The translations under genes and the position numbers were made by a program. From Desulfotignum sp. (GTDB lineage: Bacteria; Desulfobacterota; Desulfobacteria; Desulfobacterales; Desulfobacteraceae), in the NCBI GenBank assembly GCA_018399285.1, contig JAGYOW010000015.1:1-64000 (forward strand): a stretch of DNA of 64,000 bases, read 5' to 3'. The notes under the pieces were generated by a model. It did not search any database. It saw nothing but the letters and a program-made list of their open reading frames with translations, and was not told where the DNA came from. Shown one piece after another: positions 6,039 through 23,729 of this stretch (the first letter of the stretch is position 1; every line of letters starts with the position of its first letter).

Positions 6039-6071
6039 CACAACCACATACAATTTTCCAAGGAGGAAGAG

Positions 6072-7124: not shown

Positions 7125-7165
7125 CGCTCAAATCGTAAGGATCGGCTGAAAAAAGCCCAAAGAAA

Positions 7166-7204
7166 CGATAAAGCCTCCTTCGTTCGCTGGTGGGGGCTTT
7201 ATCG
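7166..7204 (+). terminator. Stem-loop between TRAP binding protein and membrane subunits (attenuating or partial terminator)
   Basis: CGATAAAGCCTCC (7166-7178) pairs with GGGGGCTTTATCG (7192-7204), a 13-bp stem with one G-T pair and a 13-base loop. It is not followed by a strong T-run. Its position between dctP and dctQM fits the common arrangement that lowers expression of the membrane subunits or stabilises the dctP transcript. Confidence 0.6.
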
Positions 7205-7240
7205 CTTCTGATGTTAATCGATCATAGAAAGAGGTAAAAA

Positions 7241-7747
7241 ATGAGACGCGTCCTGGCATTCATCGACAGTGTCAGCGAATGGAGCGGGAAGCTGGTCAGC
7301 TGGCTGATATTGATCATCATGGCCGTCCTGCTCATTGAAGTGGCATTGCGGTTTTTATTCAACGCTCCGACCATCTGGATTCATGAACTGTGCATGCATT
7401 TGTTTGGATTCTTTTCTGTGCTTGCCGGGGCCTATGTCCTTCTGCACAAACAACACGTAAAAATCGATATTATCTACCTGCAGTTTTCCCCCCGGGTCCG
7501 GGCCGCCATTGATACGGTGACGTATATGGTTTTTTTCATGTACATCGGGGCCATGTTTTATTACGGCACCGTCCTTGCGATCCGGGCCGTGGAATTGAAC
7601 CAGACCGTATCACCATCTCCCTGGGGATCTCCGTTATGGCCGCTGAAAATAGCTTTGCCCGTGGCAGCATTACTGCTGCTGCTCCAGGGGCTGGCCGATT
7701 TCATCCGCACGGTTAAATTCGCTGTGACCGGAAAGGAGATGTCATGA
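7241..7747 (+). CDS. dctQ: TRAP transporter small membrane subunit, DctQ family
   Basis: 168 residues with four predicted membrane segments: residues about 18-38, 50-72, 88-110 and 130-155. Conserved DctQ features include E at the start of TM2 (TIWIHELCMHLFGF) and the HVKIDIIY loop between TM2 and TM3. The subunit pairs with DctM to form the membrane complex. GAGG precedes the ATG, and the stop overlaps the ATG of dctM (ATGA), so the two are translationally coupled. Confidence 0.9.
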   Translation: MRRVLAFIDSVSEWSGKLVSWLILIIMAVLLIEVALRFLFNAPTIWIHELCMHLFGFFSVLAGAYVLLHKQHVKIDIIYLQFSPRVRAAIDTVTYMVFFMYIGAMFYYGTVLAIRAVELNQTVSPSPWGSPLWPLKIALPVAALLLLLQGLADFIRTVKFAVTGKEMS

Positions 7748-9063
7748 CATTTGAATGGCTACCCATTATCGTTCTGGTCGCCGGGCTCATGCTCGGGCTG
7801 ATCTCAGGGTTTCCCATGGCATTTACCCTGGGCGGCAGTTCCATTGTGGCCTCCTGGATCTTCATCGGATTTGACAGTCTGCCCTATGTGGCCACCAATA
7901 CATTCGGCATGATGACCAATGTGATCCTTATTGCCATGCCGTTGTTCATCTTCATGGCCTGTGTGCTGGAAAAATCCGGGGTGACCCATGATCTGTACAA
8001 TTTCATGCACCAGCTTTTAGGGTCCCTGAACGGGGGCCTGGCCATGGGCACCGTGGCCATCTGCGCCATTATCGCAGCCATGTCCGGGGTGAGCACCACC
8101 GGTGTGGTGACCATGGGGATTATCGCTTTACCCATCATGCTTAAAATGAAGTACGACAAAAGCATCGCCATCGGCCCGATTCTGGCCGGCGGGGCCCTGG
8201 GCCTGCTCATTCCCCCCAGTGTGTCTCTGGTCATCTACGGCATGATCGCCCGGGTGTCCATCGGCCGGTTGTTTGCCGGTGCCATCATTCCCGGCATGAT
8301 CCTGGTGTTTCTGTACATGAGTTATATCGGGATCCGGTGTTATCTGAACCCCAGTCTGGGTCCGGCCCTGCCCAAAGAAGACCGGGTTTCTTTTATTGAA
8401 AAACTGAAACTGGCCAAGAGCCTGGTGCTGCCCATGCTCATCATCATCTCGGTGCTGGGATCCATTTTCGCCGGACTGGCTTCTCCCACGGAAGCGGCTG
8501 CAGTAGGGGCCGGCGGTGCGGTTTTGAGTGCCGCCATCAACCGGCGCCTGTCCTGGGATGTGCTCAAGGATGCCTGCTTCCGCACCATGGCCATCAACGG
8601 CATGATCATGTGGATTCTGTTCGGGGCTGCCTGCTTCACCAGTATCTTTTTCCGCACCGGCGGCCAGGGACTGATCGGTGACATGATGCTGGGTCTGGAA
8701 AGCAAGGTCATCATTTTCGGTATTATTCTGCTCACCCTGATCGTTCTGGGATTTTTCCTGGATGAAATCACCCAGATCATGATCACAGTACCGGTGTTTC
8801 TGCCCATCGTGGTCCAGCTGGGATATGACCCGGTCTGGTTCGGGGTGCTGTTCATGACCCAGGTGCAGATGGATTATCTGACCCCGCCCTTTGGATTCAC
8901 CCTGTTTTATCTCAAGGGGGTGGCACCGCCCGAAGTGAGTATGGCAGATATCTATAAATCGATTCTGCCGTTTCTGTTCATGCAGCTGTTTGTGGTCATA
9001 CTGATTCTGTTGTTTCCCCAGATTGTTCTGTGGCTGCCTGAAGAGGTATTTGCCCTCAGATAG
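7744..9063 (+). CDS. dctM: TRAP transporter large membrane subunit, DctM family
   Basis: 439 residues, 11-12 hydrophobic helices. Recognisable DctM features are GFPMAFTLGG near the N-terminus, AAMSGVSTTGVVTMG, LIPPSVSLVIYGMI, GLASPTEAAAVGAGGA, and DYLTPPFGFTLFYLKGV near the C-terminus. This is the ion-coupled translocating subunit. It overlaps dctQ by 4 bases and is followed by a strong terminator. Long open frames on the opposite strand are coding shadows. Confidence 0.93.
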   Translation: MTFEWLPIIVLVAGLMLGLISGFPMAFTLGGSSIVASWIFIGFDSLPYVATNTFGMMTNVILIAMPLFIFMACVLEKSGVTHDLYNFMHQLLGSLNGGLAMGTVAICAIIAAMSGVSTTGVVTMGIIALPIMLKMKYDKSIAIGPILAGGALGLLIPPSVSLVIYGMIARVSIGRLFAGAIIPGMILVFLYMSYIGIRCYLNPSLGPALPKEDRVSFIEKLKLAKSLVLPMLIIISVLGSIFAGLASPTEAAAVGAGGAVLSAAINRRLSWDVLKDACFRTMAINGMIMWILFGAACFTSIFFRTGGQGLIGDMMLGLESKVIIFGIILLTLIVLGFFLDEITQIMITVPVFLPIVVQLGYDPVWFGVLFMTQVQMDYLTPPFGFTLFYLKGVAPPEVSMADIYKSILPFLFMQLFVVILILLFPQIVLWLPEEVFALR

Positions 9064-9109
9064 CTGAATCAGAATCAGATATTCACAAGGTTTAAAACCA
9101 TGACATTTA

Positions 9110-9152
9110 CGCTGGATTCCAGCAAAACACATCAATCCAGCGTTTTTTTTTT
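9110..9152 (+). terminator. Rho-independent terminator after the TRAP genes
   Basis: CGCTGGATT (9110-9118) and AATCCAGCG (9134-9142) form a 9-bp stem, directly followed by ten Ts (9143-9152). The next gene's ribosome site starts within a few bases, so the proline-racemase gene is reached by readthrough or from a promoter inside dctM. Confidence 0.85.
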
Positions 9153-9166
9153 AAAAGGAAACCATC

Positions 9167-10174
9167 ATGAATTTTACTCACAACATCACCACGGTTGACA
9201 CCCACACCATGGGCGAACCCACCCGGGTGGTCACCTCCGGCATGGCGCATATTCCCGGAAACCAGATGATCGATAAAAAAAACTGGCTGTCTGAACACCG
9301 GGATCATATCCGGAAAATGCTCATGCTGGAACCCCGGGGCCACCAGGACATGTTCGGGGCCATTCTCACGGAACCGGTCACAGACGAATCCGATGCCGGC
9401 GTGATCTTCATGGACAGCGGCGGATATCTGGACATGTGCGGTCACGGCAGCATGGGAGCTGTGGTGGTGCTTCTGGAAACCGGGATGCTGTCCGGAGAAA
9501 TCCATGAAAAAAACAACCCCCGGACCCTGGCTTTGGATACCCCGGCCGGCCTGATCCATGCCCGGGCTGTGATGGAAGACAACCGGGTGACCAGCGTCAC
9601 CATCCAAAACCGGGACTCTTTTTTTTGTGAGTCCATGGAGATCGAGCTGGATGCCATCGGCAAAGTCCCGGTGGATATTGCTTATGGCGGCAACTATTTT
9701 GCGCTGGTCAATGCCGATCATTTAAATCTGCCCGTGACCCCGGCGCACATCGATCCGCTCAAAAAACTGGGAATTGCCATCAGAACCGCAGTGAACCGGC
9801 AGTTCATTTTTTCCCACCCGGTGTCAGGGCTTTCTGCCACTGTGGATCTGACCGAAATTTATGAAAACACGGATCCCCCCCGGAACATCGTGGTGTTCGG
9901 AACCGGACAGGTGGACCGATCCCCCTGCGGCACCGGCACCAGCGCCAAAATGGCGTTTCTGCATCATAAAGGCCGGCTTAAACCGGAAGAACATTATGCC
10001 TATCAAAGTGTTTTCGGCACACAGTTTATGGGAAAAATTTTAAAGGAAACCAGGGTGGGGGACCGGCCCGCCATTGTGCCGGAAATCACCGGCAATGCCT
10101 GGATCACTGGATTTCATCAATTTGTGGTGGATGATACGGATCCGTATGCGTTTGGGTTTAAAATTCACATGTAA
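9167..10174 (+). CDS. Proline racemase-family enzyme (proline racemase or 4-hydroxyproline 2-epimerase)
   Basis: 335 residues with both catalytic cysteines of the cofactor-independent two-base mechanism: Cys91 in DMCGHGSMG and Cys254 in SPCGTGTSA. Because Cys254 is kept, this is a racemase/epimerase rather than the trans-3-hydroxyproline dehydratase branch, which replaces it with Thr. The MDSGGYLDMCGHG block and GGNYFALV also fit the family. The exact substrate (proline, 4-hydroxyproline, or a betaine analogue) cannot be read from sequence. AAAAGGA precedes the ATG and sits on the T-run of the upstream terminator. Confidence 0.85.
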   Translation: MNFTHNITTVDTHTMGEPTRVVTSGMAHIPGNQMIDKKNWLSEHRDHIRKMLMLEPRGHQDMFGAILTEPVTDESDAGVIFMDSGGYLDMCGHGSMGAVVVLLETGMLSGEIHEKNNPRTLALDTPAGLIHARAVMEDNRVTSVTIQNRDSFFCESMEIELDAIGKVPVDIAYGGNYFALVNADHLNLPVTPAHIDPLKKLGIAIRTAVNRQFIFSHPVSGLSATVDLTEIYENTDPPRNIVVFGTGQVDRSPCGTGTSAKMAFLHHKGRLKPEEHYAYQSVFGTQFMGKILKETRVGDRPAIVPEITGNAWITGFHQFVVDDTDPYAFGFKIHM

Positions 10175-10227: not shown

Positions 10228-11325
10228 ATGACATCCCGCATATCAGCAGTGATTCTGGCTGCCGGATTTTCCTCCCGGATGAAAACCTTTAAACCGTTGC
10301 TTCCGGTGGGTAAAAAAACCATGATTCAGACTGTCATTGATCTGTTCAGGAATAACGGCATTACCGATATTGTGGTGGTCACCGGCCACAACCGTGAACA
10401 ACTGGAACCGGTTGTCAAAAATGCCGGTGCCCGGCCGATGTTCCATCCCGGGTTTGCTTCCGGCATGCTGGGGTCCATCCAGAAAGGGATCCGGCACATC
10501 CGTCCCGAGCATGCCGGATTTTTCCTTCTTCCGACTGATATCCCGGCGGTTCGTCCGTCAACTGTCCGACTTATGATCCGGGAATTTCACACCAATCCCC
10601 ACCGAATCATCATGCCCTGTTTCAAAGGACAGCCGGGACATCCGCCTCTGATTCCCAGTGAACTGACAACACGGATTCAAGCATTGGGAAAAAACGCCAC
10701 TCTACGGGTCCTGCTGGCAGCAGAAAAAAAAAGGACCCTGACACTCCATGACCAGGGAATTCTGATGGATGCAGATGACCCTGATGGATACCGCCGCGTA
10801 CTTGACAAAGTCCGGTCCCTTGACATTCCCAACAGGGAAGAATGCCTGTCCATTGTTGACCAAGAGCTGCCACGAGAACATCCCATCCGGGACCATCTGG
10901 CCCTGGTGGCCAGGACCGCCCTGAAACTGGCCCATGCCGTGTCCGATCCCGTGAACGTGGACCTGGTGATTGCCGCAGCCCTGCTCCATGATGTCAAACG
11001 CATGGAAAAAAAACATGCCGGGGCCGGTGCCGCCCTGCTGCAGGACCTGGGATTCACCAGAGTATCCACTGTCATATCCCAGCACATGGACATTGAACTG
11101 GATCTCCATGCCCCTGTCCAGGAAAAGGAACTGGTGTATTTTGCAGATAAACTGTGCACCCGACACGGTCTGGACATCGATTATCACCACCGGTTCAGGA
11201 ACCACCTTGAAAAAACTCCCTGGGCCGCCACCAACATCTGGAAACGGTATGAAAATACACGGCACATACAGGCCAGAATTGAAGCCGCCGCAGGTAAATC
11301 CATTACAGAAATACTTGCATGCTGA
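10228..11325 (+). CDS. MobA/MocA-like nucleotidyltransferase fused to an HD domain
   Basis: A 365-residue two-domain protein. Residues 1-195 form a molybdopterin nucleotidyltransferase fold: LAAGFSSRM (10-18) for nucleotide binding, a conserved Lys at FKPLLPVG, and PTDIP (102-106) with the metal-binding Asp. This is the MocA type that attaches CMP to molybdopterin for xanthine-dehydrogenase-family enzymes. Residues about 215-340 form an HD phosphohydrolase domain with the His-Asp pair at 254-255 (LLHDVK) and downstream metal-ligand candidates (SQHMD). The fusion joins cofactor maturation to a hydrolase activity of unknown target. It is the natural partner of the molybdenum hydroxylase encoded by the convergent operon. 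Confidence 0.85.
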   Translation: MTSRISAVILAAGFSSRMKTFKPLLPVGKKTMIQTVIDLFRNNGITDIVVVTGHNREQLEPVVKNAGARPMFHPGFASGMLGSIQKGIRHIRPEHAGFFLLPTDIPAVRPSTVRLMIREFHTNPHRIIMPCFKGQPGHPPLIPSELTTRIQALGKNATLRVLLAAEKKRTLTLHDQGILMDADDPDGYRRVLDKVRSLDIPNREECLSIVDQELPREHPIRDHLALVARTALKLAHAVSDPVNVDLVIAAALLHDVKRMEKKHAGAGAALLQDLGFTRVSTVISQHMDIELDLHAPVQEKELVYFADKLCTRHGLDIDYHHRFRNHLEKTPWAATNIWKRYENTRHIQARIEAAAGKSITEILAC

Positions 11326-11898
11326 CGGCTTATTTTTTCTTCTACGGCACGGACAGATCGCCGGTTCCGGCACCCGGCGGTTCATAGGCATCTCTGATGT
11401 GGATCTGGATGACACCGGCAAATCCCAGGCCGAATATTGGCAGCATGCCTTTTCTCCACTGAAAATCGATACTATCTACACCAGCTGCCTCACCCGATGC
11501 CGGGATACGGCCCGATGGATTGCCGGGAACCGGAAATTCGTCTGCCATCCGGCATTGAATGAGATCAATCTGGGACAGTGGGAAGGCCGGCCGTTTGATG
11601 AAATTAAACGCCTGAATCCGGAAGGGTTCAAACAAAGGGGAACATCTGGATACATTCAGGCCGCCGGACGGAGAAAGTTTCACGATGTCCAGTGCCGGGC
11701 TGTCCCTTTTAGCCCGATGCCTTCAAAGACCCAGCGCCGATGTTTGTGACCCATGCCGGGGTGATCCGGGTGATTTTGTGTCCTTATCACAGGCCTGGCA
11801 CTGAAAAATCTGTTCCGGTTCAATGTGTGTCCTATGGACAGTTGTTTGTGATTCAGACCTGCGGGAAATCACAGGATTGCCCTGACGAATCTGGATGA
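11315..11898 (+). pseudogene. Histidine phosphatase-family protein, frameshifted
   Basis: Phosphoglycerate-mutase-like fold. The catalytic LLRHG motif is encoded at about 11339-11353. The only upstream start in that frame is a TTG at 11315, overlapping the end of the MocA/HD gene and suggesting coupling. The first part is intact: RHGQIAGSGTRRFIG, TSCLTRCRDTA and LNEINLGQWEGRPFDEI. After 11640 the reading moves between frames: the second active-site His in FVTHAGVIRVI is near 11740, and the end SYGQLFVIQT runs to TGA at 11896-11898. Total length is about 194 codons, normal for the family. At least two indels are needed and are likely sequence errors. The substrate may be a nucleotide or cofactor phosphate linked to molybdopterin maturation. 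Confidence 0.7.
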
Positions 11899-12889
11899 TC
11901 TGAGCCATGATACTGACCCCGATTTCCGCCGGGTCTGGGCTGATGGAAAGCCCCACGAGTGAATACACCGTGTTGAACCGCTCTTTTGAGATCCTTTTGC
12001 CATCAGATTGTCATGGATTCTGTCCCGTTTTGGTCCGGGAGCCGATCATGCCGATATGAGCCGGATCAGTAAGCGCCTGCTCCAGAACAGTCTGATCATG
12101 GAGATGGCCCCGGGTGAGAATCACGATATAGGAATGGCTGTCCACATTCAATCCTTTGAATGCATTATCAAAATCCGGTGTCACCCGGACCTGCCGGGCA
12201 TGGGGAAATCGGTTTTGTTGGCAAACGCCTCCCGGTCATCAATCACCACCGTGGAAAATCCGATAAGATGTGCCAATTGGGCCAGAACAAACCCCACATG
12301 CCCGGCACCGAAAATTAACAGGGTATCCCCAGGCAGCATGGGCTGAATGATGAATTCTTCAGATCAAAGGATGAACACTTGGAAATCTGCCGGAAAACCG
12401 GTTGTCACAAATATCTTCCAGCAGGGCTTCGGGATAAGGCGGGATCCTGTTACTGTGCCATCCAGGAGTACCAGGCTTTTGCTGATGAATTCCCCTGGCT
12501 GGGACCGGATGACAGTTTGAATACCAAAACCCCTTTTTGACCGGCCTGCTCCTGTGCCACCAGTGCCTGAAAAACTGAAATCAATTCCGGTCCGGGTACC
12601 AGGGTTTCCATGAGCACGGTAAGGCGGCCCCCGCAAGACCATATCCAGACTGCTCTTGAGTTCCTTGTCCAGAAGGGCTGGATTCGGCATGTTTTTCGGA
12701 TAAGCGCCAGGCAGGCATCTTTGACTTTTGCTTCCACAAGCCCCCGCCGATGGTGCCCAGAGGGCCATCCGGCATCACGACCATGCGGGAACCTGACGTT
12801 CTGGGTGTGGACCCCTGATGAAGAATGGCGGCAGGGCAAAGGGGTCCCTGTTTCAAGACAGTCAGTATCTGTTGATTCGACAATTCCAT
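11860..12889 (-). pseudogene. XdhC-family molybdenum hydroxylase maturation protein, frameshifted
   Basis: XdhC/CoxI proteins bind the molybdenum cofactor and help insert the sulfurated form into xanthine-dehydrogenase-type enzymes. From ATG 12889 the start reads MELSNQQILTVLKQG, then GSTPRTSGSRMVVMPDG and LGTIGGGL, the family's N-terminal signature. Middle parts (LVPGPELI, VLVFKL) lie in another frame. A Rossmann segment near 12330-12230 reads LLIFGAGHVGFVLAQLA and VVIDDREAFAN. The C-terminal PAEIGVSIMAQIIQIRQG ends near 11870. At least five frame changes are required. The start is three bases after the MoeA-like stop, so the genes are coupled. The 3' end is approximate and overlaps the convergent phosphatase gene. 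Confidence 0.75.
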
Positions 12890-12891
12890 GG

Positions 12892-13916
12892 TCAATTCTT
12901 CCCAAAACTGCACCGGGGATCTGGCATGTTTTTACAGGATGAACAAATCCGCCGTGTCCCATTTGGATAATATCGGTGCGGGTCACGGTTTCTCCAGCCA
13001 GCAGCCGGGGCACCGCAGATCAAAAATCGAGGCGGTAATACATGACACATCCGGGCAGGCCGATCACCGGCACATCATCGATATAAGCCAGCATAAACAT
13101 GGCACCGGGCGATGCCAGGCTATAGAGCATCACCTTGCCGCCGGCGTTTCGAATGGCCGCCGGGGTGAGGTCGTCAGGATCCACAGACATGCCGCCGGTG
13201 ACAGCGATAAATCCGGCCCCGTCATCCACGCACTGCCGGATAGCGGCCACGGTCATATCCATGTCATCAGAAACGACTTTTACCCCGCGGTCGGGGCCCA
13301 GTTCTTCGAACTTTTTCTGGACCACCGGTCCGAACCCGTCATTAGTCCGGCCGGAAAACACCGATCCTGTGACCACCAGTCCCACATCCACCCTGGCAAA
13401 GAGGCGGATATCAATGATCGGAAAAATTTTGCATCTTCCCGCTGCCATGACATGGGTTTCATCAATGGATAACGGATACCCAGGTGCCGGCCAGATCCCT
13501 GACCCTCTGTGACTGTCTGGTGAGTATGCAGAGTGGCACAGATCACTTCAGGAACACTGTTAAGCTGTGTCAGGCCATTCCACATCAATTTTCAACAGAC
13601 CAGAAATACCCGCACTAAATCCCACCTTGCCCTCTTTGGGATCGGAAAGCCGGATATTTTTCCCGGCAGCGGCCCGGGCGATCCGTTGTGCAGCATCGTT
13701 TTCGTGGATTTCACCGTTGAGACAGGCCACATATACATGCTGTTTGCCCAGATCCAGCAGCTGGTCCACATCTGCTTCAGTGATGATATGGCCTTTTCTG
13801 AAGGCCGGTCCCTTGAACAGATCCGGAACGATCCGGGTAATATCATGGAGCAGCATTTTCCCCACAGCATCCCTGACAGGCAGGGTCTGCACACGGTCTT
13901 TTTCATAATACTTCAA
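12892..13916 (-). pseudogene. MoeA/MogA-like molybdopterin-binding protein, frameshifted
   Basis: Proteins of this type accompany molybdenum hydroxylases and carry a MoCF_biosynth domain. The N-terminal part from the TTG start at 13916 (RDAVGKMLLHDITRIVPDLFKG, then AFRKGHIITEADVDQLLDLG) resembles the MoeA linker region. The central part, after frame changes near 13560 and 13440, reads VDVGLVVTGSVFSGRTNDGFGP, and then FIAVTGGMSVDPDDLTPAAI, the molybdopterin-binding motif. The end has paired cysteines (FCHPCKTCQIPRCSFGKN in the recovered frame) with TGA at 12892-12894. It lies between the MttB gene and xdhC, as expected for dedicated cofactor maturation. Frame breaks are in the second low-quality patch. 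Confidence 0.7.
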
Positions 13917-13955: not shown

Positions 13956-15386
13956 TTAAGCTTTTTTTTGCAGCAACGCCCTGTCAACAATTTCATCGAT
14001 GGCTGCGGCCTGTTTGTCAGTCACAAGAATCTGCGGTTCTTTTTCCAGCATAACCAGGGTCTTTTCCAATGCCTTGTCCCGAATGGACCTGGCCCCTTTC
14101 GATTCCCATTTATCCCAATTGTCATGGTCAAACAGGGCGGAATGCCATAATTCGGTCTTAAAATGTGCAAAGGTGTGCTGTGAAGCCAGCAGATTACCGC
14201 CTGGACCAGCCTGGGAAACAGCATCCAGGGCAAGAGTGTCGGCATTGATTGGAATATCTCGCATGGCATGGCGGATAAAGGCCATACAGTCATTACAGAA
14301 CACCATGTCGGCATAATCCACCACCATATCCGTGTCCAGCTGCATCCCATCCATGAGATCCGCCCTCAGGGAGGTCAGGGTCCCCACCATCCCGGTCTCG
14401 AACCCGGCCTGGGCATCCAGTATTTTAGCATCCCGCAGCATGGACGGCATGCGCACCGGCAGGTCCAGGTACTCCCCCATCTGGGCCATGGCAACCTTTA
14501 ATACGGCAAATTCCGGCCCTGCCATGGAAATATTGGAGGTCTGCATGTTCATGCCCCTGGCAAAACTGGTGTACACAATGGGTGCACCCGGTGACACCAG
14601 CTGGGACAGAGTGATACAGGCCAGAATTTCCGCATGGGCCTGAGCCACCATGCCGGGAATGGTCACCGGACCGGTATTGCCCAGGATCGGCCCGGAACTG
14701 AGCATGATAGGAATATGGTGTTGGTTCATGATCATCATGGCTTCCAAAGATTCAATGTCCATGCCCAGGGGTGGCAGGGTCAACACCCATCCGGAAATAA
14801 AGGGCCGCTTTAGAAATGCTTCTCGAGAACCTGTCACCACCGCGCCCATGTCGATGGCATCCAACACGCCCTGTTCTCCCAGGACTCCGCCGGTGATATG
14901 CTTGGTGGTGTTTTTTATGCATCCGGCCCAAGTGTACCAGTCACACACCCGATGGTCCACATCCTGGGGGGTGACAGGCCCGCCGGACACACGGACATGT
15001 GCCAGTTGATCCGACAGGTGTACCAGTCGTGTCAGGTCTGCCATGGAGGCTGACCGCTTTTTCCCGGACCAGGGATCGATCACGCTGGTGGCCATGGTCA
15101 TGCAGGCCAGTCCCGGATCATGAAGTTCAAAGGTAACATCTTTTTCAGGATCACGAGCAAACAGGCGTAGGTCTTTTTTTTTGAGCGTCGTTGAAAGGGC
15201 TTTTTGGATCAGGTCTTCTCTCAAGCACACGATATCCTTGTCACGTATTTTGGCCCCGGCCTGGTCAAATAAACCCAGGGCCTTTGAAGAGGGAAACCGC
15301 ATGCCCACGTCATGCAAAATTTTCAGAGCTGCCTCATGCAAAATACTAATCTCTTTGTCAGACAAATAATCGATGCTCAGTTTCAT
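13956..15386 (-). CDS. MttB-superfamily (non-pyrrolysine) methyltransferase
   Basis: 476 residues from the ATG at 15386, which overlaps the stop of the FAD-subunit gene (ATGA) and has GGAGG upstream. The frame is open throughout, without the internal amber codon that pyrrolysine-type trimethylamine methyltransferases use, so this is a non-Pyl MttB homologue. Known members demethylate glycine betaine, proline betaine, carnitine or gamma-butyrobetaine and pass the methyl to a corrinoid protein. The barrel is recognisable from GGVLGEQGVLDAIDMG, GAPIVYTSFARGMNMQTSN, DAKILDAQAGFETG and SQAGPGGNLLASQHTFAHFK. No corrinoid protein or methylcobalamin:THF methyltransferase gene lies in the window, so those partners must be elsewhere. 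Linkage to a BCCT transporter and a molybdenum hydroxylase points to a quaternary nitrogen substrate. Confidence 0.88.
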   Translation of the reverse strand: MKLSIDYLSDKEISILHEAALKILHDVGMRFPSSKALGLFDQAGAKIRDKDIVCLREDLIQKALSTTLKKKDLRLFARDPEKDVTFELHDPGLACMTMATSVIDPWSGKKRSASMADLTRLVHLSDQLAHVRVSGGPVTPQDVDHRVCDWYTWAGCIKNTTKHITGGVLGEQGVLDAIDMGAVVTGSREAFLKRPFISGWVLTLPPLGMDIESLEAMMIMNQHHIPIMLSSGPILGNTGPVTIPGMVAQAHAEILACITLSQLVSPGAPIVYTSFARGMNMQTSNISMAGPEFAVLKVAMAQMGEYLDLPVRMPSMLRDAKILDAQAGFETGMVGTLTSLRADLMDGMQLDTDMVVDYADMVFCNDCMAFIRHAMRDIPINADTLALDAVSQAGPGGNLLASQHTFAHFKTELWHSALFDHDNWDKWESKGARSIRDKALEKTLVMLEKEPQILVTDKQAAAIDEIVDRALLQKKA

Positions 15387-16324
15387 GTCAACGCCTCCAG
15401 GCAATCCATGATACACCGTTTTACAAGGGTTTCAGCCACATCTTTTCGGTATACAGCCGATGCTCTCAAGTCAGTGATGGGTGAAATCTCGTCCGCTGCC
15501 ATGCCGGCGCATTTCTCGATCACTCGCTTCTCCAGAGGTTTACCAGCAAGAAATTGTTCAGCCGCAGCTACCCTTACCGGGGTAGGCGCCACTGATCCAA
15601 AAGCGATCCGAGCGGTTTCGCACAAATCGCCGTCCATCCGGATTTTCACTGCTGCCGATACGATAGAGATGATCACGGCAGTGCGGGTGCCGATTTTACG
15701 AAACCCGGCAGATTCTTTGGCCTTGATTTTTGGAATGCAGATATGTGTCAGCACCTGACCGGGTGTCAAGATGGACTGTCCGGGCCCGGTGAAGAAATCC
15801 ACTACCGGCACCGAGGTACTCCCCTGTGCATCTTGAATAAGAACCCAGGCATCAGATACCAGCAAAGGCGGTGCCGTATCCGCGGCCGGTGATGCCATGC
15901 AAAGGTTGCCGCCCATGGTGGCGGTATTTCGCACCTGCAATGAGGCCATCTGTTCGACAGCCTGGGTCAATACCGGACAAGAAGCCCGGACAACCGGGGA
16001 AGTCAGTATCTGGGTCAAGGTCACCCCGGCTCCTATTTTCAGGATATCTTCTTTATTTTCAATCCGGTTGAGGGCCTTTATTTTGGAAATATCGATGAGA
16101 TTCAATCCTGGATCGAAACGCCACCGCCCAGTACGAATTGAGGGAATAAAATCGGTGCATCCGGCCACGATCTTTGCAAACGGTCCATGAGTGCTTATCA
16201 GGTCCATCAGATCCTGCATGGTTTCCGGTGCATTGTACACCAGTTCAGGCATAGCCCGGGATCCGATAAAGTTGTTTGCGGGTCTGGTTGTCATCATCGT
16301 ATTGTTTCCATAGGTGTCAGGCAT
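15383..16324 (-). CDS. Molybdenum hydroxylase FAD-binding (medium) subunit
   Basis: 313 residues of the CoxM/XdhB type. FAD-binding signatures are IVAGCTDFIPSIRTG (the usual AGGTD has a Cys for the second Gly) and TMGGNLCMASPAADTAPPLL. This subunit passes electrons between the [2Fe-2S] subunit and an external acceptor. The start at 16324 has AAGGGGA seven bases upstream; a later ATG at 16252 begins where family homology starts and is the alternative. It overlaps the MttB start by four bases and follows the iron-sulfur subunit gene by 37 bases. Confidence 0.9.
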   Translation of the reverse strand: MPDTYGNNTMMTTRPANNFIGSRAMPELVYNAPETMQDLMDLISTHGPFAKIVAGCTDFIPSIRTGRWRFDPGLNLIDISKIKALNRIENKEDILKIGAGVTLTQILTSPVVRASCPVLTQAVEQMASLQVRNTATMGGNLCMASPAADTAPPLLVSDAWVLIQDAQGSTSVPVVDFFTGPGQSILTPGQVLTHICIPKIKAKESAGFRKIGTRTAVIISIVSAAVKIRMDGDLCETARIAFGSVAPTPVRVAAAEQFLAGKPLEKRVIEKCAGMAADEISPITDLRASAVYRKDVAETLVKRCIMDCLEALT

Positions 16325-16361: not shown

Positions 16362-16850
16362 TTACCACCATTCACCGGCAAGTTTTGATTTCTGGGCGAC
16401 CATTACCGATTTGACGATGTTGATATACCCGGTGCACCGGCACAAATTTCCTTCCAGGGCTTTGCGAATCACTGCATCTGTTAGCACCGTATCTCCGGCA
16501 TCCTGAATGAGGGCATACGCATTCATAAGCATACCCGGTGTACAGAAGCCGCACTGGATACCCAGTTCGTCCGTGAATGCCTTCATCAGGGGATGAGGTC
16601 TTCCGTTTTTCACCAGGCCCTCGGAAGTCATCACAGATGCCCCTTGGACCGAGGCGGCCAGCACCAGGCATGAGTTTACCGGTTTATTATTCAGCAGCAC
16701 GGTACAAGCCCCGCACTCTCCTTCTTCACAGCTGCGGTGTACACTCGTCTTTCTCCCCTGGTTTCTGAGCACTTCCAGCAGGGTTTGCCAAGGATCAATT
16801 TCAAAGGTGGTTTTTTGGTGGTTCAAAACAAATGTCAATGGGATCTTCAT
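16362..16850 (-). CDS. Molybdenum hydroxylase [2Fe-2S] (small) subunit
   Basis: 162 residues from the ATG at 16850 (GGGAGA upstream), with the two-cluster arrangement of CoxS proteins. The plant-type ferredoxin cluster motif is CEEGECGACTVLLNNKPVNSC. The second cluster is in CGFCTPGMLM and NLCRCTGYINI. Electrons from the molybdenum centre pass through these clusters to FAD. Subunit order in the operon is large, small, medium, then the methyltransferase. All cluster cysteines are present. Confidence 0.93.
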   Translation of the reverse strand: MKIPLTFVLNHQKTTFEIDPWQTLLEVLRNQGRKTSVHRSCEEGECGACTVLLNNKPVNSCLVLAASVQGASVMTSEGLVKNGRPHPLMKAFTDELGIQCGFCTPGMLMNAYALIQDAGDTVLTDAVIRKALEGNLCRCTGYINIVKSVMVAQKSKLAGEWW

Positions 16851-16928
16851 ATTTTTTCTCCCTGTCAAAGGGTCGATTGTTTAAAAACAGATGGTTGATA
16901 GGTGGATTCTAACGGTCATGTTAAAAAT

Positions 16929-19283
16929 TCACCTGCCCTGCCCGGTAGCCTGCCGAATCCAAGACCGCACCTTTTCCGGGGTGGCCGGCGAATCATTCAC
17001 CCGAATACCGAAAGGCGTCAGCGCATCTTCGATGGCATCCAGAATTACAGCTTTTGAACCGATGATAGGGGCCTCTCCCATACCTTTGCTGCCGGTTTCT
17101 GAAAACGGGGAAGGCGTTTCCAGATGGGCGATCTCGATGTCCGGAGCTTCCACGGATGTAGGAATCAAATAATTGGAAAACGACGTGTTTTGCAATAGTC
17201 CAGATTCATCGTAATTAAGTCCCTCATACAAAGCCTCACCGATACCCTGGATGATCCCGCCGTGGATCTGACCATCCACTACCTGGGAATTGATAATAGT
17301 TCCGGCATCATGTACATGCACATACTTGATAATCTGTGTCACGCCGGTGTCAATGTCCACCTCCACCGCGGCAATATCCGCAGATACACAGAACGATGTA
17401 TAGGAAGATCCGCTTTCCGGGGTGGTGGGGCTGTACCAGGTGGTGGTCACATCCAGCAAATGATCATGGGCTTTGAGCATCTCCGGGTCCAGGCCCCTGG
17501 GACCCGGAAAGAAAAACACTTTTTCCGCGAACTGTGCATAGGAGATCTTTTTTTCCGGTGCATCTGCTGGATAGATAAATCCCTTTTCCAGCACTACCTG
17601 ATCTTGAGATATTTTGAGCAGCCAAGCCGCACATTTCACAACCTTCTCACGTAAAAGCCGGGCCGCCTTGGCCACGGCACTGGCCGGATACACAGCCCCT
17701 CTGCTGGACAAAGGACCCTGGCCGATAAAGTCGGATGTCACCCGCTTTACATGAATATGGGCCGGGTCCATTCCTAAAATATCCGCCACAATGGTTGCAT
17801 GGGAAATCTCGGTGCCCTGCCCGATTTCGGTGCGATCCGAATGCACCTCCACGCTGCCGTCCGGCGTGATCAACACCCGTGCTTCGGTGATGCCTCCCAT
17901 CTGGCAGTTGGGCACAGCCACCCCGGCTGGTTCAATGGCCGTGACCAAGCCAATGCCCAGGTAACGGCCTTGGTCGGCCAGTTCTTTTTTATGTTTGCGG
18001 AACCCGTCCAGGTCGGCCATTTCCATGGCTTTGTTGAGTACAGCCGGGTAATCTCCGCTGTCCAGCACATAGTTGTTGATCTGATGATAAGGAAATTCAT
18101 GGGGCTGAATAAAATTTTTCATTCGGATCGCTTCCGGTGTCATGTTCAACTGCTTTGCCACCTGGTTGATGGCCCCTTCAATGAACTTGATGCCCTTATC
18201 CTTGCCATACCCCCGGTAGGCGCAGTAAAAGGATTTATTGGTCACCGTACCGATCCCTTCCACATGCATACCCACCCACTTGTACATGTTGGTGGGTGAG
18301 GAACAGGCCGGAAAAATGCTTAAGGCGGCAATCCCCTTGTTAGTGCTTTCCACCCCCAAGTCATGGAACACGGTGGCCTTGAGCCCCAGCAGGGTACCGT
18401 CGTTCTTGAACGCAATCTTTCCATCCCAGAACACATCCCGTTGATGGGGACCGGTGGTGACAAAGTCCCGGTGAGGCTCCATCCATTTCACGGGCCGACC
18501 CGTGAGCTTGGACGCCAGAGCCACCACATTTTCCTTCCATGCATGAATCTTCAAACCAAAAGCCCCGCCAATGTCTACGGCATTGATTTTCACCTTAGCT
18601 TCAGGAATCCCCAGAGTAGCTGAAATGTTGTGCCGGGCCAGAAATGGGGTCTGAAATGATCCCCACATTTCCAGGGTGTCATTTTTTGTGTCATACACCC
18701 CCACACACCCCCGGGGCTCAATGGGAAGGCCCGTAACCCGACCTTCACGGTTGGTAACGCTCAACACCTGGTCTGCCATTGCAAAGGCCTTGTCCGGATC
18801 TCCGAAGTCAAACACCAGGTGGACCTGTTTATTGTCCTCCCAGTCCTCATAAACCTTTGGAGCTCCGGGGTTCAGAGCGGTACGCAGGTCGCCCGCCAAG
18901 GGCAAAAGATCATATCGAACCGAAACCAGCTCTGCAGCCTGGCGGGCGATCTCTTCAGTTTCCGCCACCACGGCCGCCACCGGCTCGCCATACCAGCGCA
19001 CCTTGTCTGAAGAAATAGCATAGATCTCTGCCAGGCGCCAGGTCCACCCCTTGGAGGTGAAATTCGCCTGTACCGGCAAGTGGCGGGTATGGGCTGCTAC
19101 TTCTTTTCCCGTGACCACGGTGACCACTCCGGGCAGAGCAAGTGCACGGGTGATGTCGATGGACACGATTTTTGCATGGGCATGGGGACTGCCCACAAAC
19201 ACCAGGTGAGCCATGTTGTTGAATTCAAGGTCATCAGCATATTGCCCTTTTCCCAGAATCAAACGTTCTTCTCTTTTTTTCAT
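16929..19283 (-). CDS. Molybdenum hydroxylase molybdopterin-binding (large) subunit
   Basis: 784 residues from the ATG at 19283 (AAGGAG eight bases upstream; an ATG at 19301 is less likely). It is a xanthine-dehydrogenase-family large subunit. Cofactor contacts include GGAFGLKIHAW. CAYRGYGKDKG sits where CO dehydrogenases have their Cys-containing loop and lacks that signature, so it is not a form I CO dehydrogenase. GSKGMGEAPIIG near the C-terminus holds the catalytic Glu of hydroxylases. The family inserts water-derived oxygen into N-heteroaromatics, purines or aldehydes. The substrate is not predictable from motifs; context suggests a nitrogen heterocycle or an aldehyde formed from one. 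Confidence 0.9.
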   Translation of the reverse strand: MKKREERLILGKGQYADDLEFNNMAHLVFVGSPHAHAKIVSIDITRALALPGVVTVVTGKEVAAHTRHLPVQANFTSKGWTWRLAEIYAISSDKVRWYGEPVAAVVAETEEIARQAAELVSVRYDLLPLAGDLRTALNPGAPKVYEDWEDNKQVHLVFDFGDPDKAFAMADQVLSVTNREGRVTGLPIEPRGCVGVYDTKNDTLEMWGSFQTPFLARHNISATLGIPEAKVKINAVDIGGAFGLKIHAWKENVVALASKLTGRPVKWMEPHRDFVTTGPHQRDVFWDGKIAFKNDGTLLGLKATVFHDLGVESTNKGIAALSIFPACSSPTNMYKWVGMHVEGIGTVTNKSFYCAYRGYGKDKGIKFIEGAINQVAKQLNMTPEAIRMKNFIQPHEFPYHQINNYVLDSGDYPAVLNKAMEMADLDGFRKHKKELADQGRYLGIGLVTAIEPAGVAVPNCQMGGITEARVLITPDGSVEVHSDRTEIGQGTEISHATIVADILGMDPAHIHVKRVTSDFIGQGPLSSRGAVYPASAVAKAARLLREKVVKCAAWLLKISQDQVVLEKGFIYPADAPEKKISYAQFAEKVFFFPGPRGLDPEMLKAHDHLLDVTTTWYSPTTPESGSSYTSFCVSADIAAVEVDIDTGVTQIIKYVHVHDAGTIINSQVVDGQIHGGIIQGIGEALYEGLNYDESGLLQNTSFSNYLIPTSVEAPDIEIAHLETPSPFSETGSKGMGEAPIIGSKAVILDAIEDALTPFGIRVNDSPATPEKVRSWIRQATGQGR

Positions 19284-19324
19284 GACTGTATCTCCTTGCA
19301 CAGGCGCCTGTGGCCCGGTTGGTT

Positions 19325-20884
19325 TTATTTATTGAATTGTTCATTATACAGGTTTTTCGCCATTTGAGGACCTCCCCACAGGGTGGGCAGCATGATAAAT
19401 CCTACCGGCACGGCCGTGATCACAATAAATGACTGCAGGGCCCCGATACCGCCAGCCCCCATTTTGATGAGAATGGCAGCCACCGCACCCATAGTGATAG
19501 CCCAGAACACCCGCATCTCTTTTGGGGGATCATCCTCTCCGGTCACGCAGATAGCAATAGACAGGGACATGGAATCTCCGGTGGTGGCCAGAAAGATGAA
19601 AATCAGTACCAGAAACACCGGAATAAGCAGACCTGCCATGGGCAGCTGCCCCACAACGGCCAGAAGTGCGGCCGGCAGCCCGGCATCATTGAGTGGCCCG
19701 GAGATCACGCCAGGATTATTCATTTCAAAGAAAATACCGGTTCCCCCAAGGATGGTAAACCAGAAATGGGTGGCCAGCGGTGCAATCACCCCCACGGCCA
19801 GCATCATCTGTCGGATGGTTCTGCCCCGGGAGATCCGGGCTACCAGCACGGCCATCAGCGGGCCGTACCCCAGAAACCAGCCCCAGAAAAAAACGGTCCA
19901 CCAGGATAGCCACCCGGTATCGCCCCGGAAAAGGCTGAGCTCGGTGAAATCTTTGATATAGGCACCCATGGAATGGGTAAAGGTATCGATGATGAACCCA
20001 CCCGGCCCGATGAGGAGAATCAAGGCCACTAAGGCCACTGTAAGCAGAACATTGACCCGGCTTAAGAACTGAATTCCCCGGTGCAGGCCGGTAACGGCTG
20101 AAATAGTATATACGATCACCAGGGCGATGATTATGGCCAGCTGGGTAATATAGGCATCCGGAAGTCCGAAAATCTGGTTCAAGGCATAACTGATCTGAAG
20201 TCCCAGAAACCCGATGGGGCCGATGGTCCCGGCGGCTACCGCCAGAATGGAGCAACCTTCAGCCACTTGTCCCAGCCGGTTCTTCATGATCTTTTCTCCG
20301 AACACCGGATACAGCAGCGCCCGGGCCTGAAGCGGATGGCCTTTGTGGTAATGAACATACATGAGCACCACAGCCCCCAGGGTGCCTAAAATAGACCAGG
20401 CCAGAAATCCCCAGTGCAGAAAGCTCTGTTCCATGGCCGGCACCACCGCTGCCTTGGTGGCGGATTCCACCCCCTCAAACACCGGCGGGGTGGTTAAAAA
20501 ATAATACATGGGTTCTGCTGCGGACCAGAACACCCCGCCCCCGGCCAGCAGGGTGCACATGATAATGGAAATCCAGCGGAAGGTGCTCATCTCCGGAGTA
20601 TCGATGTTTCCCAGCCTGACATCCCCGTATCTGGAAACCGCCAGACCCATGGCGATAAGAAAATTCAGAAGCAGCAGCCACTGCCAGTAGGCCCCGAAAT
20701 ATGTGCAGGACAGGCCGAAAAAACGGTTCACCTGGCTGGATACGAACTCACTGTTGATCAGGGAGGCCACCACAAACAGGAGCAAAAATCCTCCACTGAT
20801 CAAAAAAACAAGCCATTCCATGTTTTTCCACTGAAAACTGGTTTTTGTGCTGGCGCTTTTGTTCACCGTCATGTTCCCGTCCAT
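19325..20884 (-). CDS. BCCT-family betaine/carnitine/choline transporter
   Basis: 519 residues, 12 predicted membrane segments. BCCT features include the aromatic-rich WSAAEPMYYF after TM3 (usually WxxAEPM), FLHWGFLAWSILGTLG, and FWGWFLGYGPLMAVLVARISRGRTIRQM in TM8 to the following loop. BCCT carriers import zwitterionic quaternary ammonium compounds such as glycine betaine, carnitine, proline betaine or sulfonium analogues. AAGGAG precedes the ATG. Within an operon holding an MttB methyltransferase and a hydroxylase, it most likely takes up a growth substrate rather than an osmolyte. Confidence 0.92.
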   Translation of the reverse strand: MDGNMTVNKSASTKTSFQWKNMEWLVFLISGGFLLLFVVASLINSEFVSSQVNRFFGLSCTYFGAYWQWLLLLNFLIAMGLAVSRYGDVRLGNIDTPEMSTFRWISIIMCTLLAGGGVFWSAAEPMYYFLTTPPVFEGVESATKAAVVPAMEQSFLHWGFLAWSILGTLGAVVLMYVHYHKGHPLQARALLYPVFGEKIMKNRLGQVAEGCSILAVAAGTIGPIGFLGLQISYALNQIFGLPDAYITQLAIIIALVIVYTISAVTGLHRGIQFLSRVNVLLTVALVALILLIGPGGFIIDTFTHSMGAYIKDFTELSLFRGDTGWLSWWTVFFWGWFLGYGPLMAVLVARISRGRTIRQMMLAVGVIAPLATHFWFTILGGTGIFFEMNNPGVISGPLNDAGLPAALLAVVGQLPMAGLLIPVFLVLIFIFLATTGDSMSLSIAICVTGEDDPPKEMRVFWAITMGAVAAILIKMGAGGIGALQSFIVITAVPVGFIMLPTLWGGPQMAKNLYNEQFNK

Positions 20885-20964: not shown

Positions 20965-22158
20965 TCAAACCTGCTGCATTTCAATGGTTCCCGTGACCGG
21001 GCATACGGACAGGCACCCGCCGCATCCTACACAGTTTTCTTCTTTCACATACACGGTCTCGTCCCCCTGCTGCATGGCATCGGAAAAACACACTTTCAGG
21101 CACATGCCGCAGTTGATGCATTTTTCTTGGTCCACACATGCTTTTTCATGGGGCATATCCCCGTATTCCATGCACGCATCCGTGGCAATGCCCAGCATCT
21201 GATCAATGGAGGCATACCCTTTATCATCCATGAAGGTTTCCAGTCCCTCAACCTGCTTTGTGAGCCACTCATACCCGTAACACATAACAGCTGAACACAT
21301 CTGGACAATATGGGCCCCGCTCATGATGAACATGACCACATCCCGCCAGTCATAGGCCCCGTTGGTGCCGGTGATGTCCAGTTTGTCCCCCAAAGCGCAC
21401 CTGACCTCATTGATCCACCGCAGGGTCAACGGTTTGGTCCAGGGACCGCCCACCCCGGCCTTGCCGTAAATCAACGGCTTGCCGGTCTCGATATCCGGTA
21501 CAAACCCGATGAACCGGTTGGTGAGGGTAACAGCCCGGGCCCCGGCTCGGTGAAGCATGTCTGAAAACAGCACCAGGTCGGTCACCTGAGGCGTAACCTT
21601 GATGATGATGGGAACCTTTACAGCCTCGGCCACTTTTTGAGTGATTTCACACCCGTAATCAAAATCCTGTCCCACGTTCATGCCGGTTCTCACCCCGGGC
21701 ATCAACTTGGGATGGGGACACCCGAAATTCAGCTCGATCAACGGCACCCCGCCGTCCTCCATCTGTTTTCCCAGATCTACCCAGCCGTCCAGGGTGGTGG
21801 AGGCGATGGACCCGATGACCTGGGCATCGTGCTGACGGGCATAGGCCACGGTTTCGGTAATCTCCTTCATGAAATCTTCAGGCGGCTCCAACGCCAGGCC
21901 TGAGCGGCTGTAAAGGCTGAAACTTCTGGGGACCTTACCGTGGCATACCTCATGTCTGGCATTGAGAAACCGCCATTTGGCCCGCTGTGTCAGCTCCCGC
22001 ATGGCAGGCGAGTCAGTCATGGTTTTGGCGATCACTGCACCTGCACCGGCATCAATGCATTTTTTCATGTTAGCGGCATTGAGGGTGGGTTCGGCTGAAG
22101 CTGCAGCCAGGGGGTTTTTAAAGGGTACACCACAAAATTTCACACGTGTATCTGCCAT
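20965..22158 (-). CDS. PreA-like dihydropyrimidine dehydrogenase/dihydroorotate dehydrogenase-family protein with two [4Fe-4S] clusters
   Basis: 397 residues. The TIM-barrel flavin domain (about residues 1-310) carries VKFCGVPFKNPLAAAS, LIELNFGCPHP, IIIKVTPQVTD and ITGTNGAYDWRD. The C-terminal ferredoxin domain has two CxxCxxCxxxC motifs (CINCGMCLKVC and CVGCGGCLSVC). PreA-type enzymes reduce or oxidise a C=C bond in a nitrogen ring such as uracil, usually with a PreT partner. No preT gene is adjacent, so electrons may come from ferredoxin or another oxidoreductase. AAGGAC precedes the ATG. It lies 24 bases after the nitrilase-type gene, paralleling reductive pyrimidine degradation, in which ring reduction is followed by amide hydrolysis. 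Confidence 0.85.
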   Translation of the reverse strand: MADTRVKFCGVPFKNPLAAASAEPTLNAANMKKCIDAGAGAVIAKTMTDSPAMRELTQRAKWRFLNARHEVCHGKVPRSFSLYSRSGLALEPPEDFMKEITETVAYARQHDAQVIGSIASTTLDGWVDLGKQMEDGGVPLIELNFGCPHPKLMPGVRTGMNVGQDFDYGCEITQKVAEAVKVPIIIKVTPQVTDLVLFSDMLHRAGARAVTLTNRFIGFVPDIETGKPLIYGKAGVGGPWTKPLTLRWINEVRCALGDKLDITGTNGAYDWRDVVMFIMSGAHIVQMCSAVMCYGYEWLTKQVEGLETFMDDKGYASIDQMLGIATDACMEYGDMPHEKACVDQEKCINCGMCLKVCFSDAMQQGDETVYVKEENCVGCGGCLSVCPVTGTIEMQQV

Positions 22159-22182: not shown

Positions 22183-22977
22183 TTACTGGTTTTTCATTCC
22201 CGGGTTTAAAAACGCTTTTCTGCCGGCAAGTCCCGGGAATTTCTTTCTGGCGGCATCCGTATTTGCCGGATCAATTCTGGTTTCAATGATGGCTTCCTCA
22301 TCCCCGGCCCCGGCCAGAATCGTGCCCCAGGGATCCACCACCATGCTGTGACCGACAAATTGACTGCCGTTGTTCATACCACAGCTGTTTGCACAGACCA
22401 GGTAGCACTGGTTCTCTAAGGCCCGGACCCGGTTGAGCATAGTCCAGGCCGGCAGCCGGGGATACGGCCAGGCAGAACATACCAGAAACATATCCGCCCC
22501 CTGGTCCACCATGGAACGGAACAGCTCCGGAAACCGCAGGTCAAAACAGGTGGCCATGCCCATATTGCCGAACGGGGTCTCCACCACCACCGGGGTGTCC
22601 CCGGGGGTCAGAATCTGTGTTTCCTTTGAATTGTAACCGAACAGATGGATTTTCCTGTATGTGGCCAGAATAGCCCCCTCCGGAGAAAACAGCACACTGG
22701 TGTTGTAGTAATTGTCCCCGTTTTTTTCCACGAAACTGCCGGTATGCAGATAGATTTGATATTTTCCGGCCAGGTTGCCCATATTCCGAACAAACGGACC
22801 GTCTATAGTCTGGGCATCAGGCACATACCGGTCAAAACGCATGAAACCAGTCTGCCAGATTTCCGGCAGCATCACCAGATCCGCCTCCCGGCACTGATCA
22901 ATGGCTTGTTGTGCTTTGTCAAAGGTGGCTGCAGGATCGTTTTCAATCACACTCAGCTGGATAGCGGCGATTTTCAT
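22183..22977 (-). CDS. Carbon-nitrogen hydrolase (nitrilase superfamily)
   Basis: 264 residues from the ATG at 22977, which has AAGGAG upstream; an upstream ATG at 23016 is poorer. The Glu-Lys-Cys triad is complete: Glu39 in MLPEIW, Lys109 in YRKIHLFGYN and Cys144 in MATCFDLRFPE. The superfamily hydrolyses amides, nitriles and carbamoyl compounds. The sequence around Lys and Cys is of the omega-amidase/beta-ureidopropionase kind rather than true nitrilase. In this operon it may open a lactam or cleave a carbamoyl or amide intermediate made by the PreA-like enzyme. Confidence 0.88.
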   Translation of the reverse strand: MKIAAIQLSVIENDPAATFDKAQQAIDQCREADLVMLPEIWQTGFMRFDRYVPDAQTIDGPFVRNMGNLAGKYQIYLHTGSFVEKNGDNYYNTSVLFSPEGAILATYRKIHLFGYNSKETQILTPGDTPVVVETPFGNMGMATCFDLRFPELFRSMVDQGADMFLVCSAWPYPRLPAWTMLNRVRALENQCYLVCANSCGMNNGSQFVGHSMVVDPWGTILAGAGDEEAIIETRIDPANTDAARKKFPGLAGRKAFLNPGMKNQ

Positions 22978-23023
22978 GAAAAATATCTCCTTGTCATTAT
23001 CTCTTTCAGATATCACTCACCCA

Positions 23024-23716: not shown

Positions 23717-23729
23717 ATTGCACTCCTGT

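Follow-up and report, generated by a model that had tools for sequence, protein, structure and literature searches.

An MttB homologue overlapping a molybdenum hydroxylase operon in Desulfotignum, proposed as the entry enzyme for anaerobic use of a methylated N-heteroaromatic betaine

The window analysed here is a stretch of 64,000 nucleotides from Desulfotignum sp. (GCA_018399285.1, contig JAGYOW010000015.1; genome G000 and contig C57 below), from an assembly of 3.5 Mb in 199 contigs that is 86.5% complete. From about 24.7 kb, the minus strand carries the genes for a GntR regulator, a cupin, a DUF2848 protein, a carbon-nitrogen hydrolase, a PreA-like protein, a BCCT transporter, the large, Fe-S, and FAD subunits of a molybdenum hydroxylase, and an MttB homologue, in this order. 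These genes and their flanking features are listed below.

10228-11325, plus strand: DVU_1551-family NTP transferase with HD domain, a possible molybdenum cofactor maturation gene (NF045665, 365.5 bits, cut-off 315)
12364-13916, minus strand: decayed molybdenum cofactor accessory region downstream of MttB, with XdhC-like and (by eye) MoeA-like remnants as ORF fragments in several frames
13956-15386, minus strand: non-pyrrolysine MttB-superfamily methyltransferase, proposed N-methyl-pyridine-carboxylate:corrinoid methyltransferase (PF06253)
15383-16324, minus strand: molybdenum hydroxylase FAD subunit, whose stop overlaps the MttB start (PF00941 and PF03450)
16362-16868, minus strand: molybdenum hydroxylase 2x[2Fe-2S] subunit (PF01799 and PF00111)
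16929-19301, minus strand: molybdenum hydroxylase molybdopterin subunit, proposed to hydroxylate next to a ring nitrogen (PF20256/PF02738/PF01315)
19325-20884, minus strand: BCCT transporter, proposed importer of the methylated betaine (PF02028, 494.2 bits)
20965-22158, minus strand: PreA-like ring reductase with a DHOD domain and 2x[4Fe-4S] (PF01180 and Fer4)
22183-23016, minus strand: carbon-nitrogen hydrolase, omega-amidase-like (PF00795, 200.1 bits; nearest solved chain NIT2 2w1v, 131.3 bits)
23024-23791, minus strand: DUF2848 protein, for which a hydration or ring-opening step is a guess (PF11010, 194.3 bits)
23730-24074, minus strand: small cupin (PF12973), 83-100% identical across the module copies read
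24055-24741, minus strand: GntR/FCD regulator, proposed regulator of the operon (PF00392 and PF07729)
25135-25797, minus strand: second GntR-type regulator resembling the first (ORF; 57-61% to the first GntR genes of sibling genomes)

The MttB ORF encodes 476 amino acids from an ATG start with GGAGG just upstream, and its residues 5-469 match the Pfam MTTB family at 293.5 bits against a cut-off of 25, which identifies a superfamily member. The preliminary description had reported that this start codon shares an ATGA with the stop of the FAD subunit gene and had called the two fused; the overlap, of ATG with TGA, was confirmed in the sequence, and the genes are two and not a single polypeptide. 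The same overlap was observed in all eight Desulfotignum loci compared (the window, L001-L005, L007, and L008) and is therefore no chance event. No stop occurs within the matched frame, so a pyrrolysine codon is absent, and the protein falls below the equivalog for pyrrolysine trimethylamine methyltransferases (TIGR02369, 314.8 versus 525 bits) and lacks an in-frame amber codon. An in-frame TAG is expected for those enzymes. The source genome holds 13 MttB matches, some cut by contig ends, and two further MttB genes in it (G000:C2:77847-79322 and G000:C145:99604-101070) contain one in-frame TAG each.

Among solved chains, the nearest to the window MttB is MtgB 9yce (187.5 bits, 424 residues aligned), a chain to which the genus's own MtgB-type protein scores 442.2 bits. 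In the MttB tree, the window-type proteins formed a clade of their own with support of 100/100, and the MtgB-type protein of Desulfotignum, to which the window MttB is 30% identical, was placed outside it. Placement within a characterised clade had been named beforehand as the result that would overturn the earlier reading, and with respect to MtgB the reading stands. An assignment as a second glycine betaine enzyme (MtgB) was ruled out by this clade together with the transporter segment described below. Predicted structures of MttB and the DUF2848 protein, built from shallow alignments, had mean pLDDT values of 36.8 and 31.9 and were not used.

The three hydroxylase subunits carry the MoCo, 2x[2Fe-2S], and FAD domains of the molybdenum hydroxylase family in Pfam. 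The nearest solved chain of the large subunit is quinoline 2-oxidoreductase 1t3q (391 bits), with CoxL 8uem close behind (385.6 bits). A CO dehydrogenase (CoxL) label was rejected for the large subunit, which scored under the equivalog cut-offs (417.6 versus 991.15 and 478.4 versus 950 bits), as was a xanthine dehydrogenase label for the molybdenum subunit (357.5 versus 780 bits). No NCBIfam enzyme cut-off was reached by MttB, the hydroxylase subunits, BCCT, the amidase, or the PreA-like protein, indicating uncharacterised members of known families. A second hydroxylase family, termed cox' here, was found in L052, L054, and L058; its large subunit is 28% identical to that of the window and has 4-hydroxybenzoyl-CoA reductase as its nearest solved chain. 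The window-type (coxLSM) and cox' hydroxylases form separate tree groups, with long branches flagged by the program.

The nearest solved chain of the PreA-like protein is dihydropyrimidine dehydrogenase, and its score lies under the PreA equivalog (241.2 versus 335 bits). All eight PreA-like proteins of the module that were compared have a GMNVGQ loop where dihydropyrimidine dehydrogenase has GLACGQ; the cysteine is thus replaced, and the reaction may differ. These proteins perhaps represent a distinct ring reductase family. For the amidase, the ATG at 22980 is a likelier start than the listed GTG. The DUF2848 protein resembles FAA hydrolases by a match below the cut-off (FAA_hydrolase, 20.7 versus 23.9), and any role given to it or to the cupin in a pathway is a guess.

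Downstream of MttB, the decayed accessory region retains a partial XdhC_CoxI match (12740-12829) and is 82.7% identical to the sibling locus L009 at the DNA level, with 106 gaps, over 2.7 kb. Further XdhC-like matches are present elsewhere in the source genome. A phosphatase-like gene (assigned by eye, about 11297-12000) is frame-broken as well, with intact neighbours. A convergent operon at 5304-10174, which adjoins the MttB operon in several Desulfotignum siblings, encodes an Asp/Glu-racemase-like protein, a TRAP transporter, and a proline-racemase family protein. A proline-related substrate was considered from this operon and dropped, as the racemase was labelled in no orthologue stretch outside Desulfotignum.

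A second, diverged copy of the operon was identified in the source genome on contig C177 (L061, 1-7928), in the order amidase-PreA-BCCT-coxL-coxS-coxM-MttB and cut by both contig ends. Compared with the window, its MttB fragment is 56% identical and its coxL 79%. The idea that this copy belongs to another MttB subclade with an isomeric substrate was discarded, since its 132-residue fragment groups on the window's side of the tree. G064 also has a second MttB piece.

Orthologues of the window MttB were sought by similarity search in one class, covering the Desulfobacteraceae (86 genomes) and the Desulfobacteria (389 genomes). They were found in 18 of the 86 family genomes (E <= 1e-100) and 23 of the 389 class genomes (E <= 1e-120), which combine to 25 different genomes; a contig scan for MttB gave nine loci, seven of them from Desulfotignum. 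The orthologue stretches span 4.7 to 21.4 kb, mostly from fragmented MAGs. Their genes were named by comparison with those of the window, L057, and L058, so that genes unlike these are mostly unnamed.

Counting the genomes in which MttB lies near a molybdenum hydroxylase, as the preliminary description had suggested, gave 17 of the 25 with a hydroxylase of either of the two non-orthologous families on the same stretch. In eight Desulfotignum-type genomes, coxLSM stands directly before MttB. The whole operon is present in four Desulfotignum-type loci besides the window (L002, L004, L005, and L007), and part of it on the short contigs of L001, L003, and L008. The unrelated cox' set lies directly after MttB in G017, G019, and G041, about 9.7 kb away in G038 and G055, and beyond the ring genes in G221; coxLSM is about 12.7 kb from MttB in G057, and coxL follows BCCT in G143 and G276. 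L054 and L058 keep the window gene set, and L052, on a short contig, part of it, with the cox' hydroxylase downstream of MttB. In G388, ring genes adjoin MttB and the contig ends before any hydroxylase, while the contig of G031 is too short to judge. As a control, among the matches listed for 84 family genomes, none of 150 other MttB-superfamily genes lies within 3 kb of an FAD subunit and one of 150 within 15 kb, against 11 of 19 and 14 of 19 window-type MttB places from the family search; each list gives the best 150 rows by score, contigs are often short, and the counts are incomplete on both sides.

The remaining six genomes (G059, G060, G081, G256, G260, and G264) show a different arrangement, here called the BenE type, in which MttB, BCCT, and BenE accompany a pterin methyltransferase and a corrinoid protein and the gene order varies. 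Corrinoid-protein and pterin-methyltransferase matches lie within about 10 kb in all six, and ring genes were found on the stretch in none of the six. The domains were confirmed by Pfam/NCBIfam in L057 and partly in L055 (including the corrinoid protein) and L083, with BenE-family transporters inside the methyltransferase operons at L055 6314-7606 and L057 12408-13727. Both L055 and L057 include a chemoreceptor, and that of L057 has 3lib as its nearest solved chain. In sections of PMC10104139, 3lib is named as carrying an amine-binding motif, and no trigonelline binding is reported for several domains with this motif.

The ring module was also observed apart from MttB. G059, which contains the BenE-type L055, holds on another contig L156, a run of GntR-cupin-DUF2848-amidase-PreA-coxLSM-TRAP without MttB or BCCT; the other five BenE-type genomes had no PreA orthologue at E <= 1e-160. 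G255, in which no MttB orthologue was found at E <= 1e-120, encodes a ring module with cox' on an 8.9 kb contig. These two modules, with the TRAP transporter of L156, indicate that the ring module can stand apart and is then found with an organic-acid transporter family. In L081, PreA-MttB-BCCT-coxLSM-TRAP-MtgA-like form one run, and in L079 a TRAP transporter lies between MttB and PreA. A Liv-type ABC transporter separates the cox' hydroxylase from cupin-DUF2848-amidase in L165 (4366-8974), whose genome showed no BCCT next to MttB. It was considered a hint that the free acid is taken up separately, a reading that was dropped since this contig breaks off within the amidase gene, beyond which MttB may lie. 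Across the MttB tree the arrangements are intermixed, requiring three changes for BenE, three for coxLSM, and two for cox', of which starred branches force two each. One and the same demethylase has thus repeatedly been combined with different sets of downstream genes, and MttB with BCCT looks like an attachable entry unit.

BCCT was labelled in 19 of the 25 orthologue genomes; the six stretches where it was not seen are those of G038, G055, and G221 and three on short contigs (G031, G072, and G388). In G221, a TRAP transporter takes its place beside MttB. The segment WGWFLGYGP is present in the 16 operon BCCTs compared, 10 of ring type and 6 of BenE type, where Leu is replaced once by Ile and once by Met (L001, L004, L005, and L008 were left out of this comparison). 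The BCCTs beside MtgB-type genes of the genus have WAWWMSW(S/A)P instead in all three cases. Following work on BetP, we take this segment to be the putative aromatic box that would bind the substrate, and its common form in ring-type and BenE-type loci suggests the same substrate in both.

The preliminary description had stated that no corrinoid or MtgA-type gene is near MttB, and indeed all B12-binding_2, B12-binding, and MtgA-like matches of the source genome lie off contig C57. Its view of this absence as an oddity is weaker than claimed, given that the six BenE-type orthologues have genes for both partner proteins nearby and that, according to sections of PMC8604678, a single MtqC, whose gene lies apart from theirs, serves MtpB, MtcB, and MtyB alike in Eubacterium limosum. 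The search it proposed for an unlinked corrinoid protein returned no close one in the rest of the genome (0 matches in G000; one B12-binding_2 match of 36.5 bits). A corrinoid protein 72-83% identical to the BenE-type one occurs in 10 of 13 genomes of the genus. In L133, this corrinoid protein and a pterin methyltransferase follow the MtgB-type gene, and in L137 it follows another MttB paralogue. The source genome's counterpart of the L133 MtgB-type gene (89-90% identity) is cut by the end of contig C13, so a gap in the assembly probably explains the lack of its corrinoid/pterin pair. The source genome also has two strong RACo activator family matches (G000:C116:43867-44634 and G000:C123:94658-95386); both hold one TGA inside the matched frame, and more RACo fragments lie beside the C116 match.

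Homarine is N-methylpicolinate, and trigonelline is N-methylnicotinate. From the observed gene content, conservation, module swapping, and common transporter segment, we infer the substrate, the order of steps, and each reaction of a pathway. In the loci, BCCT points to a substrate that is a zwitterionic quaternary amine, MttB and its corrinoid partners to the removal of an N-methyl group, and BenE to an aromatic acid as the product of demethylation. The molybdenum hydroxylase, PreA-like, and omega-amidase-like genes suggest an N-heterocycle that is hydroxylated beside its nitrogen and then reduced, with ring opening to an amide. All these hints fit N-methyl-pyridine carboxylates. We regard it as fairly probable that MttB opens an anaerobic pathway whose substrate is a methylated N-heteroaromatic betaine. 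This is most likely an N-methyl pyridine carboxylate, with homarine favoured and trigonelline next.

In the proposed route, the zwitterionic betaine would be imported by BCCT, and MttB would move its N-methyl group onto a Co(I) corrinoid protein, from which a partner methyltransferase would hand it to a folate-type carrier. The pyridine acid left after demethylation would be hydroxylated next to the ring nitrogen by the molybdenum hydroxylase and partly reduced by the PreA-like protein, after which the ring would be opened and the amide nitrogen set free by the NIT2-like amidase. For picolinate, this would lead from 6-hydroxypicolinate through tetrahydro-6-oxopicolinate and 2-oxoadipamate to 2-oxoadipate and ammonium. 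On chemical grounds, 2-oxoadipamate is the open intermediate expected from picolinate, and it is a homologue of the NIT2 substrate. In known bacterial pyridine pathways, as presented in parts of PMC9304392, ring opening gives alpha-ketoglutaramate, which is hydrolysed by an omega-amidase. In the BenE-type relatives, BenE would move the demethylated aromatic acid across the membrane, outwards or inwards; both this direction and the acid as cargo are suggested by the family name.

The sequences do not distinguish homarine from trigonelline or from other N-methyl heteroaromatic acids. Sections of PMC8269262 report homarine as an abundant marine betaine and trigonelline as far scarcer in a Pacific survey, though a 2023 correction (PMC10134881) describes the homarine values as overstated, the standard having contained picolinic acid. 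We tentatively propose, as a possibility short of an even case, that the new MttB clade is the homarine:corrinoid methyltransferase of an anaerobic homarine pathway, coupled either to full ring breakdown, by two interchangeable molybdenum hydroxylases with the PreA-like and NIT2-like proteins, or to release of picolinate via BenE.

The same architecture could instead serve trigonelline, with nicotinate passing through 6-hydroxynicotinate and tetrahydro-6-oxonicotinate to 2-formylglutarate as it does in Eubacterium barkeri, though with a different reductase and different ring-opening proteins, a reading that we consider unlikely though worth keeping in view. PMC10805028 suggests trigonelline as an aromatic methylamine whose use in anaerobic methylotrophy is yet to be explored, and nicotinate fermentation in E. 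barkeri, as outlined in PMC9304392, proceeds by reduction of the 6-hydroxynicotinate ring to a tetrahydro-oxo-nicotinate and then hydrolytic opening. Against trigonelline stand its scarcity in the Pacific survey, to be read with the correction of the homarine values, and the NIT2-like amidase, which would fit a 2-oxo-acid amide such as picolinate chemistry, and not nicotinate chemistry, should give.

The preliminary description had also suggested that demethylation and hydroxylation act on the same molecule. That both belong to one pathway is supported by the recurrence of molybdenum hydroxylases of two unrelated families on the MttB stretches, while the six MttB loci without ring genes and the L156 ring module without MttB indicate that the steps are probably sequential, with demethylation first. 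Hydroxylation of the methylated pyridinium ring before demethylation appears quite improbable: the hydroxylase genes of the window do precede and overlap MttB, but MttB precedes the hydroxylase in L052, L054, and L058, and the modules, found separately as described, can work apart. Least probable of all is a reading in which MttB acts on an ordinary aliphatic quaternary amine and merely shares its regulation with hydroxylase genes that serve another compound. In its favour, glycine betaine, carnitine, and choline are known substrates in the BCCT and MttB families, and the nearest solved relative of MttB is a glycine betaine enzyme. Against it, the genus has a separate MtgB-type gene, the BCCT segment differs from that beside MtgB-type genes, an aliphatic product would leave BenE and the ring-reduction genes without a function, and the MttB-hydroxylase association recurs with two hydroxylase families.

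The preferred pathway, entered by demethylation of an N-methyl pyridine carboxylate, resembles several known systems in part. MtgB (2qne and 9yce) belongs to the same superfamily, has no pyrrolysine, and shares the expected N-methyl transfer to a corrinoid protein, whereas the window MttB differs from it in clade, transporter segment, and neighbours. MtpB, MtcB, and MtyB of E. limosum, compared here by description, share MtqC and MtqA and act on proline betaine, carnitine, and gamma-butyrobetaine, and as in the window the B protein is encoded away from its corrinoid and folate partners; the sections of PMC8604678 on these enzymes mention no molybdenum hydroxylase. The E. barkeri fermentation parallels the proposed route in its hydroxylated pyridine acid, ring reduction, and hydrolytic opening, but it starts from the unmethylated acid, and no MttB step is described in the relevant part of PMC9304392. 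Its reductase and enamidase were compared by description, and the amidase of the window is NIT2-like.

Aerobic trigonelline degradation by TgnA/TgnB possibly concerns the same substrate class as the window operon. That route begins with ring opening by an oxygenase, as cited in a passage of PMC8269262, whereas the route proposed here would be oxygen-free. In the reductive pyrimidine pathway (PreA/DPD, then a CN hydrolase), as in the window, a PreA-like reductase adjoins a carbon-nitrogen hydrolase; the window differs in its PreA score below the cut-off, in the replaced Cys of GLACGQ, and in the added hydroxylase and demethylase, and no dihydropyrimidinase was found among the Pfam matches of its operon. 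In the literature searched, we found no MttB-type enzyme described for homarine or trigonelline, and no description of an anaerobic route from a homarine-like betaine through B12-linked demethylation to ring breakdown.

Judged from its genes, this marine-type sulfate reducer appears to carry a set for the import, B12-linked demethylation, and oxygen-free ring breakdown of a methylated ring osmolyte such as homarine. The gene neighbourhoods point to a chemically new substrate class, the aromatic N-methyl betaines, for which WGWF..YGP in a BCCT beside MttB offers a simple search marker. They also give homarine and trigonelline a testable anaerobic fate and, if the reading is true, would suggest how the rings of these osmolytes are degraded without oxygen. 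Should the homarine reading hold, an abundant marine osmolyte would supply sulfate reducers with its methyl group as well as its ring, and some of them would pass the ring to others.
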